Shown here: piece by piece, positions 4,863-27,181 of the stretch
How positions within the stretch are numbered: the first letter of the stretch is position 1
Layout of the letters: the number at the start of each line of letters is the position of its first letter
Assembly (NCBI RefSeq): GCF_000016605.1
Contig: NC_009440.1
Span: 434,001-498,000, forward strand
Source: Metallosphaera sedula DSM 5348
GTDB taxonomy: Archaea > Thermoproteota > Thermoprotei_A > Sulfolobales > Sulfolobaceae
Direction of reading: 5' to 3'
Length of the DNA stretch: 64,000 bases
Made by a program: the position numbers and the translations under genes
Notes under the pieces: model-generated
What the model was told of the DNA's origin: nothing
Databases searched by the model: none
The model's input: only the letters and a program-made list of their open reading frames with translations

Positions 4863-6620
4863 ATGGCTACTCGAGAGGAAATAAGGAGACTCGAACAGGA
4901 GAAACTGATGGAATGGAGTAGAAAGTATCAGCAAGTCCAAGAAAGAGAGGCAAAAAGATCCCTGTTGGTCAAGGTCCTTTACACCGAGGACTACAAGACC
5001 TTGAGTATAAAGCTACTGTTAGCGGCAGTTGCGTGGCTGTTCATAGGCGGTGCGTTCGCGCTATTCCTCAGGGGACAAGCGGGGCTCAGTAGCGAAGGCG
5101 TACCGGTAGTCCTCGACCCATCATACTACTTCCAGGCCATGACTAACCACGTCATGGACATGGTGTTCGGTGCGGCCTTCACGGCAGTGTTCTCGCTGGC
5201 ATTCTACATGATCCCTGCCCTGAACGGCTCTAGGTTGGTGAAATGGCCCAAGGTAGCGAACTTCGGGTTCTGGCTAAACAATTTCGCCCTCTTTATGATG
5301 AACTTGGGAGGAATACAGAACCAGTATCTGTTCACTTTCCTTAATCCACTGCAGGCATCAGTCACGTGGTACATAGGATATGGAACCATGGTTGTTGCAG
5401 AATGGTTGGAGATGGCCTCGGTAATTGGTACTAGCTTCGAGGGCAGAGTACAGGGTAAGCTAGTACCTACTCCCATTGGGTTCATTGTCATGGACATGAT
5501 AATGATGGCCTTGGCAAATATTCCCGTGTTTATTGCTGACATGTGGAGCTTATTCTCACCCATAGGTGGCCTGAACATATACCTGTTCGGTATTCCCAAC
5601 GCTGAGGTGTGGAAGGGATTGTTCTGGTTCGCTGACCATCCCCTAGTGTATTTCGTTCCCTATACTCTCTCGGGATGTATAGTTGCCATAACTCCGCTCT
5701 ACGCGAGAAGACCAATGTATAGCGTGAGGTTTACGAGATGGCTCATCCCAGTCCTCTTCGTGTTGGGATCTAGCGTCTACGTTCACCACATAGTGGACGA
5801 CCCGTGGCCCCTGATCCTGAGGGATATATTCGCCCAGACCAGCACTGCCTTGGTGGCGGTTCCCTTCGCTGCCCTCTGGCTACTCTTCTTCATCACCCTA
5901 GGCGATCCCAGGAAGTTGAAGTGGGATCCAGGGTTCGCCTTCATATTTGCCGCAGCCGTCTGGAACATAATCGGAGGAATACAGGCTGAGCCCACCAATC
6001 CAACACCTTCGCTGGACCCAACGATACATAACACAGGATGGATATTCGGTCACTTCCACATAATGCTCACTCTGTACTCTGTGGGTGGCGTGCTGGGTGT
6101 AGTATATATTGCAGGACCCTACTTACTTGGAAAGAACTGGTACAGCACCAAACTAGGATGGTTGCACTTCTGGGGATGGCAAGCGGGTATGGGATTGTTC
6201 TCAGCCGTTTCGAGTGAGGGTGGATTCTTCGGGCTAATCAGAAGGGAAGTAGCGTGGGCCGGCTTCTACGAGGTTTACTACCAGCTCATCATGATAGCCG
6301 GTTGGCTAGCAGGCTTCGCGACCATAATATTTGCCTACAACCTAGTACTAACTCTCCTCTATGGACAAAAAACACCAAAGACCGATATTGACTTGTGGGC
6401 TGTATATTCTATTGCCCTAGAGAGATATGGGATGAGAAGGGAAGGATATAGCGAGGAGGAATTACCTTTAGCACTTCCCTCAGACGGTATGATAAGGTTC
6501 GAGAAAGTATCTGAATCTGGTGGACTTAGCACAGGTCTGTCCTCAACGAAGGCTACCAACACGAAACCTGAGAAGCTCTCATTGGACAACTCACCCGATT
6601 CCATAGGAAACGCAAAGTAA
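4863..6620 (+). CDS. foxA: FoxA, heme-copper oxidase subunit I
   Basis: A 585-residue, many-helix protein. The catalytic set is present: low-spin heme ligand H96 in the TNHVMDM motif, CuB His and cross-link Tyr in DHPLVYF (H259, Y263), the His pair H308-H309 in YVHHIVDD, and H397/H399 in GHFHIM for the two hemes. The HPEVY glutamate of the A1-type D-channel is Leu260, so proton uptake must differ from mitochondrial-type oxidases. An N-terminal charged helix of about 45 residues precedes the first membrane segment. The start is fixed by alignment to foxA', which has exactly the same length with no indel. It is thought to reduce oxygen with electrons from Fe(II) through FoxB and the cytochrome b. 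Several long blocks are base-for-base identical to foxA'. Confidence 0.88.
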
Positions 6621-6929
6621 GAACGCTTTTAAGCAATCTTTTTAGCTAAATTACTCTTTTTCTCAATATATCTTTCTTCTACTATTGGACAATTACAATC
6701 CTTTTACTTTACATTACTGTTATTAGACATTATGTAGTGATTGATCAGAGTTATTTATCACCTTGGCCTTTAAGCTTAGATCATTATAGTTCATATATGG
6801 TAAAATATTTGTAGCCTAAAATATTTTCTCTTTTGACTTTAATGGAGTGACGTGTACTTGCCGGTATACTAATGACATTAAACTTCGACATGAATCTTTT
6901 TATACTTCTTTTTCTTACAATGGAGATCA
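6621..6929. promoter_or_regulatory. foxA': foxA-foxA' intergenic region with foxA' promoter
   Basis: After the foxA stop come T-rich stretches (for example around 6628-6654) that can end transcription. At 6896-6904 CTTTTTATA forms a good TATA box 26-34 bases before the foxA' ATG at 6930, predicting a leaderless message. foxA' therefore has its own promoter, unlike a simple read-through operon. This intergenic sequence shows no similarity to the foxA upstream region, although the coding parts are partly identical. No small gene is seen. Confidence 0.5.
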
Positions 6930-8687
6930 ATGGCGTCCAAAGAAGAAGTTCGAAGGCAAGATAGAGAAAAACTTCTAGAATGGGCAAGGCAATATCAAGA
7001 AGTCCAAGAGAGAGAAGCCAGAAGAAACATCTTCATGAAAGTGTTGTATTCCGAAGACTATAAAACTATGGCTATAAAATTAATATTTGCTGGATTAGTA
7101 TTTCTATTCATAGGCGGTGCGTTTGCCCTATTCATTAGGGGGCAAGCTGGACTCAGTAGCGAAGGCGTACCGGTAGTCCTCGACCCATCATACTACTTCC
7201 AGGCCATGACCAACCACGTCATGGACATGATCTTCGGTGCAGTATTCAATGTAGTGTTTGCGGTATCTTTCTACATGATACCTGCTATGAACGGATCCAG
7301 ACTCATAAAGTGGCCAAAGCTAGCTAATGCAGGTTTCTGGATAAGCATTATCGCGCTGTTTATGATGAACTTCGGCGGGGTTGAGAACCAGTATCTCTTC
7401 ACGTTCTTGAACCCATTAAAGGCATCTCCCACCTGGTACATAGGCTATGGTATGATGGTTGTGGGCGAATGGATGGAAATGGCTTCCGTGCTAGGTACTT
7501 CCTTTCAAGGAAGAGTCCCAGGTAGACTGGTCCCCACTGCCATTGGGTTCATTGTCATGGACATGATAATGATGGCCTTAGCTAACATATCTGTATTCAT
7601 TGCTGACATGTGGAGCTTATTCTCACCCATAGGTGGCCTGAACATATACCTGTTCGGTATTCCCAACGCTGAGGTGTGGAAGGGATTGTTCTGGTTCGCT
7701 GACCATCCCCTAGTGTATTTCGCCCCATATGCATTAACCGGTGCCATAGTTGCCATAACTCCGCTCTACGCGAGAAGACCAATGTATAGCGTGAGGTTTA
7801 CGAGATGGCTCATCCCAGTCCTCTTCGTGTTGGGATCTAGCGTCTACGTTCACCACATAGTGGACGACCCGTGGCCCCTGATCCTGAGGGATATATTCGC
7901 CCAGACCAGCACTGCACTTATTGCCGTTCCCTTCGCTGCCCTCTGGCTACTCTTCTTCATCACCCTAGGCGATCCCAGGAAGTTGAAGTGGGATCCAGGG
8001 TTCGCCTTCATATTTGCCGCAGCCGTCTGGAACATAATCGGAGGAATACAGGCTGAGCCCACCAATCCAACACCTTCGCTGGACCCAACGATACATAACA
8101 CAGGATGGATATTCGGTCACTTCCACATAATGCTAGCAATATACTCCGTAGGCGGTTTGCTCGGTGCCTTATACGTAGTGGGACCTGATCTCTTCGGCAA
8201 GAACTGGTACAGCACCAAGCTAGGATGGTTGCACTTCTGGGGATGGCAGGCAGGTATGGGATTGTTCGCCATAGCTTCAAGTGAGGGTGGATTCTTCGGG
8301 CTAATCAGAAGGGAAGTAGCGTGGGCCGGCTTCTACGAGGTTTACTACCAGCTCCTACTAATCGGTGGTTGGCTAGCAGGCTTCGCGACCATAATATTTG
8401 CCTACAACTTGATATTGACTCTACTATATGGCGAGAAAGTGCCTAAGACAGACATACCCATGTGGGCAGTTCAGACGGTTGCCATGGAAAGGTATGCGAT
8501 GAGAAGGGAAGGATATAAGGAGGAAGAAATGCCAGTGGCTCTTCCCGCTGACGGTATGATAAGGCTAGAGGAGAACTCGGGAATTTCCAATGGTACCCCT
8601 GTTGGAGCAAAGGCGCTAGATAACAACTCGCTAGATGTTAGTAAGGGAAGTCCTAGTAAGGGACTGACGGATCCAGGAAAAAGTTAA
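6930..8687 (+). CDS. foxA': FoxA', second heme-copper oxidase subunit I
   Basis: A 585-residue paralogue of FoxA, collinear over its whole length at a constant offset of 2067 bases. All heme and CuB ligands noted for FoxA are at the same positions (H96, H259, Y263, H308, H309, H397, H399). Sequence differences cluster in the N-terminal helix, the segments around residues 100-200, short patches such as after HPLVYF, and the C-terminal tail; the catalytic core is identical even at silent sites. The ATG follows a TATA box by about 26 bases. The two subunits may serve alternative oxidase complexes or different iron regimes, while sharing FoxB. The C-terminal 40 residues are Gly/Ser/Asn-rich and unlike those of FoxA. 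Confidence 0.87.
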
Positions 8688-23109: not shown

Positions 23110-24543
23110 CTATCTTCTAAACACCACATACAAGGAGACTAAGACTATGATAGCAACTACTGCTCCTATGATAGTAGCATCTAGAGCTACACCATTCTCA
23201 TTAGGCACAGTTGTGGTGGAGGTGGTGTTGGTGGTGGTTGTGGTGTTTGATGTTGTAGTGGTTGTTGTAGTGGTTGTGGTTGGGGCCGAATTGGAGAGGG
23301 TGAACTGGAGGAAGCCAGAGGTGATGGACTTGTCGAACAGGGTCTCACCCAGCTTGCCCTGCCAAACAGCGAAGGCAACGTAGTAGGTGTTGCCCACAGT
23401 GAAGTTGGGCATCCACTGGGCATATGCCTGAGGTACCTGTAGGGGTCTCACGTACTCCACGGTCCAGAAACCGTTGGAGTAAGTGGCTCCGGTCTTAACG
23501 AAGAAGAGGGAGCCGTTGAGGCCTGAGGAGGCCACGGGAGCGTACCATATGCCTGCCGTGTCCACTTCGTACATGTTGGTGTTGTTAGTGTAGAGCGGAA
23601 CAGCGAAGCCCTGATTACCTGGATCCGTGTAGGGTAGGCCAGTGAGAGACTCGTTATTCCATAGGTTTGCCGCGAAAGCGGGGTCGTAGGTCTTGTTGTT
23701 CTATGTGGCGCCGGAGACCCACATCCAGATGTTGGCTGCGCCTCCCTGCTGTTGTAGTGAACCACCTGCAGTTGTGAACGTATATCCGCTTAATGTTTCA
23801 CCTATATAGTCGCCTCCTATGTTCATGCAGTCAGTTGTGGGAGGAATTACGCTACCCATGTACCACATTATTGCAGCCCTGTCTGGGTAATATTGCGTTG
23901 CATTGACATAGTAGCCGTAGAACATTCCATGGTTATACAAGAGATACTGCTTCGGCAACGAGTCAGGAGTTATGATAACCCCGTTGGGTAATACCCATAT
24001 TTGAGTACCGTTAAGCATAGGCAACGTTATACCAGAGTAGTTCAGAATCAGACGACCATTTTCTTGAGTTCCATTAATGAAGGTAACATAGTTCGAGTAT
24101 GAGGTGTTAACGTAGTACGTAGTTCCTGGAGTTAGCTCCTGAAGTTGCTCAACTCCCGGACCGCTCGCAGCAGGATACTTTGCCGCTGCAGCTGCAGACC
24201 AGGCACCGAACGCTGGGTCTGGGGCTGGCCAGCTCATGAGGACCATGAGGTCAGTCCCATTCCAGGCTGTCTTCACCAGGACGTAATGGGTTAAACCGGA
24301 TGTTGGGGCCTGGGGTATGTTGGCCGTGAGCGAGATGTTGTCCCAAGGAATCTTGGACCAGAAGCTTTCAGTCCCTGGGGCACTGAGGTTAGCTGAACCC
24401 GAGATCTTGTAGGCTACTATCTGGGGAGTGGTTTGGGCCATGGGGACGCTGACAAAACCCATGATGAGTGAGGCGACCAGTAGTCCTACTCCTAGGATTA
24501 ACAAGATTTTCCTGTTGTCTAACCTGCGCATCAATTCAACCAC
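23110..24543 (-). pseudogene. cbsA2, second cbsA copy interrupted by one amber codon
   Basis: A 478-codon frame collinear with cbsA (25745-27181). It is open from the GTG at 24543 to the stop at 23110 except for TAG at 23703-23701, where cbsA has TGG (Trp281). There is no frameshift. The signal peptide, the first 119 or so codons, the C-terminal 170 codons, the poly-Thr stalk and the last helix are nearly identical to cbsA at DNA level, while codons about 120-258 diverge strongly. The promoter-proximal 49 bases are also identical. Either a young pseudogene, a sequencing error, or a read-through gene; Sulfolobales are not known to read TAG as sense. An ATG at 24531 is an alternative start. Confidence 0.8.
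23211..23770. repeat. 3' half of the cbsA duplication (copy in cbsA2)
   Basis: Matches 25849-26405 almost base for base. Differences seen are a 3-base indel in the Thr-codon run near 23253, the TGG to TAG change at 23702, and one silent change near 23739. Such identity at silent sites implies very recent duplication or gene conversion. Confidence 0.85.
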
Positions 24544-24806: not shown

Positions 24807-25748
24807 CTAAGTTCTGTTTTGTGCTTTGTTTATAATTCTATCTAATAGCCTGCTCTTTCCTTCTTTCATGTTGATTAGGATGACCCCAATTATCGGGTAT
24901 ATCATATAGAGAATTAAATGATAACCGTTCACCCCTAGAAATACCGTCGTTATTACCATGAAGTATCCTAGACCAGCATAGGGATTCCTGCTAAGCGCTA
25001 TGGTGACTGATAGATAAATGGCCACCGCAAGGGATATCACGAATAAGGGTAGTGAATACGGATTCGTGAGGACTATACCGAAAACTGAGGGCATTACCAT
25101 GTTCATTATTATATCCATGAACCTGTTGCTGGAAACCAGGAAATAGATTGGAAGAAACACGAAAAGCGCAGGGATTGATGCCAAGTAGGAGATCGAAGCT
25201 CTTTTTAGACTAAGATTGCGGGAACTCCAGAGCACGGTATAGACTAGGAAACTAACCAGGGAGACCTCAAATACTAGAAGGTAATTGAGCAAGAGCTCCA
25301 CATGGGATATATCCACGAGTAATCCGGCCACAATCAGCAGACCCACCATGAAGGCGGTGGGGAGATTTACTAGGGAAAGAATAGGGGCTTGGAGAAAGCT
25401 CTCGACTACACCAAGAATTCCAAGTGTGGCCACTATTACCTCGTACATTACCCATAGCGGGGATGAGAAGTAGTTATTGATAAGGGTAAAAGCTGGGGAG
25501 ATCAGTAGAAGAATACCTAGAGGTAGTAACGCCTTAACCTTTTTCCATGAGAGAATAGAGAAAATTCCTATTGACAGGTACCCCAGATATATGCCGATCT
25601 GACCCAGCCTAGTTAGAACGTTCTGGAATGGGATATGAATGGGTAGATAGGAAACCGAGAAGATAAACTGCAGAATGAATTGAAAAATAGAGGCTAAAGC
25701 CAAAAAAACCAGAACTAACTTAATTGATTCATCCCTTAGGGAGCTCAT
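24807..25748 (-). CDS. cbsB: CbsB, membrane partner of cytochrome b558/566
   Basis: A 313-residue, strongly hydrophobic protein with about nine membrane helices and a short basic C-terminus (INKAQNRT). It overlaps cbsA by four bases (ATGA), so it is translated together with it. In Sulfolobus CbsB is the hydrophobic subunit that accompanies the heme protein CbsA; it has no known cofactor motif and none is visible here. cbsA2 lacks such a partner of its own, which fits cbsA2 being the derived copy. T-rich sequence after the stop may end the transcript. Confidence 0.82.
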
Positions 25749-27181
25749 CTTCTAAACACCACGTATAGGGCTAGAAGGGCTATGATTGCTACGATTACAC
25801 CTACTACAGTAACATCCAGTGTAACGTTCCCCACACTGGAGGAAGTGCTTGTGGTGGAGGTGGTGTTGGTGGTGGTTGTGGTGTTTGATGTAGTGGTTGT
25901 TGTAGTGGTTGTGGTTGGGGCCGAATTGGAGAGGGTGAACTGGAGGAAGCCAGAGGTGATGGACTTGTCGAACAGGGTCTCACCCAGCTTGCCCTGCCAA
26001 ACAGCGAAGGCAACGTAGTAGGTGTTGCCCACAGTGAAGTTGGGCATCCACTGGGCATATGCCTGAGGTACCTGTAGGGGTCTCACGTACTCCACGGTCC
26101 AGAAACCGTTGGAGTAAGTGGCTCCGGTCTTAACGAAGAAGAGGGAGCCGTTGAGGCCTGAGGAGGCCACGGGAGCGTACCATATGCCTGCCGTGTCCAC
26201 TTCGTACATGTTGGTGTTGTTAGTGTAGAGCGGAACAGCGAAGCCCTGATTACCTGGATCCGTGTAGGGTAGGCCAGTGAGAGACTCGTTATTCCATAGG
26301 TTTGCCGCGAAAGCGGGGTCGTAGGTCTTGTTGTTCCATGTGGCGCCGGAGACCCACATCCAGATGTTGGCTGCACCTCCCTGCTGTTGTAGTGAACCAC
26401 CTGCATCCTTTAGGGTGAAGCCATCAAACTCCTGTCCAGGTACCTTTCCACCTATGTTCATACAGTCACTTGTGGGAGGAATTACGCTACCCATGTACCA
26501 CATTATTGCAGCCCTGTCAGGGTAATACCAAGTGTTATTTGTGTAGTAACCATAAAACATACCATTGTTGTACAGGAGGTCCTCCATGGGTCTTAGGGAG
26601 TGATATAGGATAATACTACCATTGGGTAAGACCTGAATCTGCGTCATGTTTGGAGTTGGTAGGGTAATCCCAGAGTAATTTAGTATTAACCTCCCTTGTT
26701 CCTGCTTCCCGTTGATAATGGCATAATAATTACTGAAGGATTTATTCAGTGAGTACGTAACTCCTGGAGTTAGAAGGATTTGCCTGAATAGACCTGGACC
26801 ACTGGCAGCAGGATAGAGTGCACCTGCAGCTGCAGACCAGGCACCGAACGCTGGGTCTGGGGCTGGCCAGCTCATGAGGACCATGAGGTCAGTCCCATTC
26901 CAGGCTGTCTTCACCAGGACGTAATGGGTTAAACCGGATGTTGGGGCCTGGGGTATGTTGGCCGTGAGCGAGATGTTGTCCCAAGGAATCTTGGACCAGA
27001 AGCTTTCAGTCCCTGGGGCACTGAGGTTAGCTGAACCCGAGATCTTGTAGGCTACTATCTGGGGAGTGGTTTGGGCCATGGGGACGCTGACAAAACCCAT
27101 GATGAGTGAGGCGACCAGTAGTCCTACTCCTAGGATTAACAAGATTTTCCTGTTGTCTAACCTGCGCATCAATTCAACCAC
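25745..27181 (-). CDS. cbsA: CbsA, extracytoplasmic cytochrome b558/566 subunit A
   Basis: A 478-residue exported protein: signal/anchor at about 12-35, a large glycosylated domain with many N-X-S/T sites, a Thr/Asn/Ser stalk of about 30 residues (likely O-glycosylated) and a C-terminal helix (about 455-473). It is the mono-heme cytochrome of the CbsAB-SoxLN complex. Start is a GTG at 27181, with an ATG four codons later as alternative; TTTATTATA about 25 bases upstream fits a leaderless or nearly leaderless message. The central part (codons about 120-260) differs from cbsA2 while the flanks are identical. Confidence 0.87.
25849..26405. repeat. 3' half of the cbsA duplication (copy in cbsA)
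   Basis: Partner of 23211-23770. Includes the Trp281 codon TGG at 26338-26336 that is TAG in the other copy. Confidence 0.85.

Follow-up and report, generated by a model that had tools for sequence, protein, structure and literature searches.

Evidence for repeated short-tract gene conversion between the tandem oxidase genes foxA and foxA' of Metallosphaera

How can two neighbouring genes be identical down to their silent sites in some stretches and thoroughly diverged in others? The question is raised by foxA and foxA' of Metallosphaera sedula DSM 5348, which lie next to each other on one strand, 585 codons each, in the window analysed here (64,000 bases, positions 434001-498000 of a closed genome of 2,191,517 bases). 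In window coordinates, the two genes are:

4863..6620, plus strand: foxA, heme-copper oxidase subunit I of 585 amino acids (Pfam COX1, E=1e-66), foxA-type at the diagnostic residues introduced below.
6930..8687, plus strand: foxA', paralogous heme-copper oxidase subunit I of 585 amino acids (Pfam COX1, E=8e-72).

FoxA belongs to family B of the heme-copper oxidases (PMC3512248). Alignment to solved oxidases identified His96 as the low-spin heme ligand, His259, His308 and His309 as the CuB ligands, together with Tyr263, and His397 and His399 as other heme or metal ligands. All six histidines and the active-site tyrosine are invariant in the fox proteins (13 of 13), in keeping with a heme-copper oxidase subunit I. 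An AlphaFold2 model of FoxA built from these 13 sequences was discarded (mean pLDDT 45). Among 197 genomes of the order, more than one complete fox gene of this type per genome was found only in Metallosphaera. One Metallosphaera genome of 1.8 Mb (G006) gave no foxA match at E<=1e-60; for M. cuprina, foxD, E, F and I are the only fox losses reported (PMC7325606). Our literature search returned no paper naming Msed_0484 or Msed_0485.

At an offset of 2067 bases foxA and foxA' are 79.7% identical, against approximately 25% at every other offset within 5 bases. The initial annotation had described the pair as free of indels over its whole length, which is true up to approximately codon 547; the last 40 or so codons align only with compensating indels, and that both genes come to 585 codons is therefore partly fortuitous. 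It had also described blocks of identity, silent sites included, that alternate with diverged blocks and hold the catalytic histidines and tyrosine. These blocks were recovered to within two bases (the 209-base run starts at 5859, not 5861), and all the ligands named above fall in tracts 1 to 4 of the following list, which runs along foxA and closes with the partner of its core in foxA':

5085..5163, plus strand: converted tract 1 (partner at +2067 in foxA'), holding His96; an exact run of 59 bases (5085-5143), with one mismatch if extended.
5164..5470, plus strand: large unconverted island, approximately residues 102-203; silent divergence 0.45-0.72, and the island tree.
5532..5655, plus strand: converted tract 2, holding the CuB ligand His259 and Tyr263; 124 bases identical, silent run significant.
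5655..5678, plus strand: unconverted micro-island, codons 265-272 (V265A, T268A, S270T, C272A); 7 of 8 codons differ.
5679..5848, plus strand: converted tract 3, holding the CuB ligands His308-His309; 170 bases identical, silent run significant.
5847..5858, plus strand: unconverted micro-island, four codons around V331I; all four differ in M. sedula.
5859..6067, plus strand: converted tract 4, holding His397 and His399; 209 bases identical.
6066..6131, plus strand: unconverted island, residues 402-423, from codon maps and the three-species comparison.
6201..6212, plus strand: unconverted island, residues 447-450, from the same maps and comparison.
6213..6287, plus strand: converted tract 5; 75 bases identical.
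7599..8134, plus strand: foxA' partner, at offset 2067, of the homogenised core 5532-6067.

Further exact runs lie at 5473-5512 (40 bases) and 6300-6341 (42 bases). Per 30-codon window, silent divergence between the two genes goes from 0.00-0.08 up to 0.6-0.75. Sliding windows of silent codons gave 0.00-0.12 across most of 5538-6000, and 0.45-0.75 at 4863-5000, at 5178-5440 and near 6348. Polymorphic silent codons match in runs of 28, 47 and 54 (p<=0.0002), while after shuffling the longest run averages 14, with a 99% limit of 25.

Comparison with other species locates the origin of this pattern. In the main tracts, the M. sedula pair differs at none of 85 fourfold sites, as opposed to 55 of 83 in the islands, which are saturated. 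The genes of other species are far more distant at the main-tract sites: M. sedula differs from its nearest species, M. javensis, at 40 of 83, from M. hakonensis foxA at 58 of 78 and from M. yellowstonensis foxA at 42 of 75. Selection on the protein alone, the annotation had argued, would not hold silent sites identical. M. yellowstonensis carries two fox copies and M. hakonensis three, and both repeat the mosaic, with the pair differing at 15/80 fourfold sites in the main tracts and 41/110 in the islands in the former, and at 10/82 and 54/91 in the latter. Tract borders are not the same between species, so the conversion events are separate. A GENECONV-style scan of nine genes (324 silent polymorphic sites) returned globally significant fragments only for pairs from the same genome; the M. 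yellowstonensis pair is globally non-significant (p=0.72; pairwise p=0.014) because its copies are alike almost everywhere.

The trees of different blocks of one gene are in conflict. In the core tree, paralogues of the same genome are sisters (support 99/99 and 96/98) and orthologue clades are rejected (AU p 6e-59 and 2e-80). In the island tree it is the sister grouping of the M. sedula paralogues that is rejected (AU p 3e-5); foxA-type sequences stand apart from foxA', which itself forms no resolved clade. Moreover, the same 21 diagnostic residues tell the two gene types apart in M. sedula, M. hakonensis and M. yellowstonensis, and flanking-gene order relative to the fox copies is unchanged between species. 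With the saturated islands, the shared residues place the duplication before the homogenisation. Silent sites and trees together show that homogenisation of the core came after the species split and took place separately in M. sedula, M. hakonensis and M. yellowstonensis. Silent-divergence windows, fragment scan and orthologue trees, the checks proposed with the annotation, all agree with its reading of gene conversion; the word "ongoing" is an interpretation of the missing silent differences rather than a population observation.

Type-state switches were counted at sites for which the type difference is the same in the remaining two species. In M. sedula, 7 residues of foxA have changed to the A' state and 1 of foxA' to the A state; the corresponding counts are five and nine in M. 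yellowstonensis and two and three in M. hakonensis, all of them only indicative, as single substitutions can mimic such switches. Since switches are seen in both copies, transfer may run in both directions, with an only indicative leaning in M. sedula towards foxA as the recipient.

The initial annotation considered the diverged regions as allowed to differ. They do differ, but they are not merely allowed to, as the same residues have been kept through independent conversions in three species. In M. sedula, codons 265-272 and the four codons around V331I differ at silent sites too and are flanked by perfect identity. The first of these islands, beside a CuB histidine, differs in all three genomes that have both types; the second is also present in M. 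hakonensis, and two of its codons differ in M. yellowstonensis. Codons 265, 266, 268, 270, 272, 330 and 331 differ in all three species: 7 coincident island codons against 0.5 expected from circular shifts (p=0.0008), and, for the wider core, 22 against 3.2 (p=0.00005). The same small islands have thus outlasted independent conversion. In each species, silent divergence is also clustered within 4 codons of the diagnostic residues (p=0.014, 0.024 and 0.003), these residues having been defined on the same three species as the recurrence test.

The third foxA reported for M. hakonensis HO1-1 (PMC7325606) serves as an internal control:

Locus L061, 5379-7136: third M. hakonensis foxA copy, with the A' state at most diagnostic residues.

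It lies several kilobases away from the other two copies; both of its ends have diverged strongly from foxA', to which it is identical at silent sites along approximately 450 bases. Across five islands (residues 265-275, 329-332, 402-424, 447-458 and 475-479) it shows no difference from foxA'. Because of this identity, island sequence is convertible between like copies, where the type is not lost, which favours selection over a recombination cold spot. We infer from these data, and from the recurrence in three species, that the islands are best explained by selection for two oxidase types, acting against the turning of A into A'. Given type residues kept by selection, the two genes most likely encode functionally distinct oxidase subunits of iron respiration; the literature consulted offers no functional contrast between FoxA and FoxA', and no expression or activity data for the two copies.

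Two genomes with a single fox gene bear on the fate of the pair. In M. javensis (locus L062), the gene is in the foxA state at the first 12 of the 21 diagnostic residues, which reach to 331, and in the foxA' state at the other 9, from 404 on. The interval in which the type switches contains the 209-base tract. The M. javensis gene is bordered upstream by the 154-aa gene otherwise found in front of foxA, and downstream by the CBS-domain gene otherwise found behind foxA'. Switch and neighbours together are what would be expected of a crossover inside this core interval. The flanking DNA (62% vs 60% upstream, 55% vs 52% downstream) is weakly informative overall, and the argument is carried by gene order and diagnostic residues. 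The other gene has a more intricate structure:

Locus L063, 6924-8678: single fox gene of G009, with three or more changes of type from end to end.

It is foxA-type up to residue 140, mostly A'-type from 179 to 449, foxA-type again at 510-511 and A'-type at 515.

Could the core be identical for reasons other than conversion? It comprises the most conserved segments of the protein, and constraint on silent sites through codon choice, an overlapping gene or RNA structure could be imagined to hold it. Orthologues, however, have diverged at the very same fourfold sites, both in M. javensis and in M. hakonensis, and silent constraint is therefore excluded; we give it virtually no credence. Nor does an independent tandem duplication in each species, with young pairs alike and fast-evolving diverged parts, fare much better, even if it would account for core trees that group copies by genome. 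A young duplicate is expected to show uniform silent divergence, and what is observed is far from uniform. The type-specific residues common to three species, the silent saturation of the islands within each genome and the unchanged order with respect to flanking genes also go against it. The non-uniform divergence and the shared residues refute recent duplication, which we regard as highly improbable.

More serious is the idea that conversion is real and the islands are unselected, either left over by chance or sitting in recombination cold spots. In Sulfolobales, conversion is by nature patchy (PMC4471258; PMC3914695), and diverged stretches resist further conversion, so that remnants could persist; indeed, self-reinforcing divergence could account for part of the large islands. 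The recurrence of the same small islands in three species and the identity of the third M. hakonensis copy to foxA' over exactly these islands speak against it, and we consider it rather unlikely. A further doubt touches the hybrid genes alone, in that the single genes of M. javensis and G009 might be assembly collapses of two real copies. Near-identical tandem genes are prone to collapse, the M. javensis AS-7 assembly carries the label of a metagenome-assembled genome, and the foxA-foxA' order has been described as general in the genus (PMC7325606). On the other hand, both genomes are single contigs of approximately 99% completeness, and the longest identical tract of the M. sedula pair is just 209 bases. 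Collapse is unlikely, though it keeps some weight, and the M. sedula result is unaffected even if it occurred.

The explanation that we favour, with a probability of roughly 0.87, is that foxA and foxA' arose by an old tandem duplication and undergo repeated short-tract conversion within each genome, with selected islands and occasional crossing-over, and that they most likely encode two distinct oxidase subunits. The duplicates are common to at least three Metallosphaera species. Each event would be a short-patch, non-reciprocal homologous recombination, as described experimentally in Sulfolobus. Conversion would spread freely where both proteins need one sequence, in the helices bearing the heme and copper ligands, and selection would remove any conversion in which type-specific residues are lost, so that islands as small as four codons remain. 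Rarely, crossing-over in the homogenised core would delete one copy and leave a hybrid gene, as in M. javensis. More tentatively, and with slightly less than even confidence, we suggest that the resisting codons (V265A, S270T and C272A by CuB, V331I, 404-422 and 448-449) determine the two oxidases, and that single-gene species run a hybrid.

A second pair in the window has the same kind of mosaic:

23110-24543 and 25745-27181, minus strand: the two cbsA copies (cytochrome b558/566 subunit A).
23701-23703, minus strand: in-frame TAG in the first cbsA copy, interrupting a frame that is otherwise open and similarly long.

Approximately the first 300 bases of the cbsA copies are identical, and again some 400 bases; identity in between is 58-79%, with indels within the diverged part. 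In the identical parts, each copy is 82-93% identical to M. javensis cbsA. The TAG sits near an identical block, and the second copy and the orthologues are intact.

Neofunctionalised duplicates under conversion pressure are known from human RHD/RHCE and the primate red/green opsins, and from the models of Innan and Teshima. Those genes share with the fox pair narrow peaks of divergence at selected sites in an otherwise homogenised gene; they are eukaryotic, whereas the fox pattern is archaeal, repeated in three species and provided with an internal third-copy control. Archibald and Roger reportedly described partial, lineage-specific conversion between archaeal chaperonin paralogues, which, so described, resembles the fox case in another gene family. 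Among prokaryotes, 26 genes have been listed under long-lasting concerted evolution, tuf, mtrA, amoA and haoA among them; all seven archaeal cases are from methanogens, and neither Metallosphaera nor Sulfolobales appears in the text (PMC6053082). As in those cases, fox copies within a genome resemble each other at silent sites more than they do their orthologues, in several species and in genes of central energy metabolism; unlike them, the fox genes are only partly converted, with recurrent islands left over. Short-patch, discontinuous conversion has been reviewed for S. acidocaldarius (PMC4471258), and short discontinuous tracts have been described in S. islandicus (PMC3914695). The interrupted fox tracts of 59-209 bases fit such a process, with several short tracts amid recipient sequence in the same archaeal family. 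The Sulfolobus cases concern marked DNA against the chromosome, or exchange between strains, whereas the fox genes are tandem paralogues on one chromosome. We found no report of conversion in fox genes in the literature, with subscription papers mostly outside coverage.

Conversion-driven concerted evolution that spares selected islands is already known, and the fox pair is a new, unusually clean archaeal case of it. Beyond the initial annotation, the analysis adds the recurrent islands of a few codons, the third-copy control and the hybrid gene. The pair is a clean crenarchaeal addition to the concerted evolution of respiratory genes, and suggests that short-patch conversion shapes a wild chromosome in the very family in which laboratory work described it. 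It also carries a warning, as whole-gene fox trees blend two histories. Finally, it narrows what may distinguish two terminal oxidases in iron oxidation to a few residues open to testing; if our reading is true, conversion in Metallosphaera would amount to a natural residue-level scan of the determinants of oxidase type.
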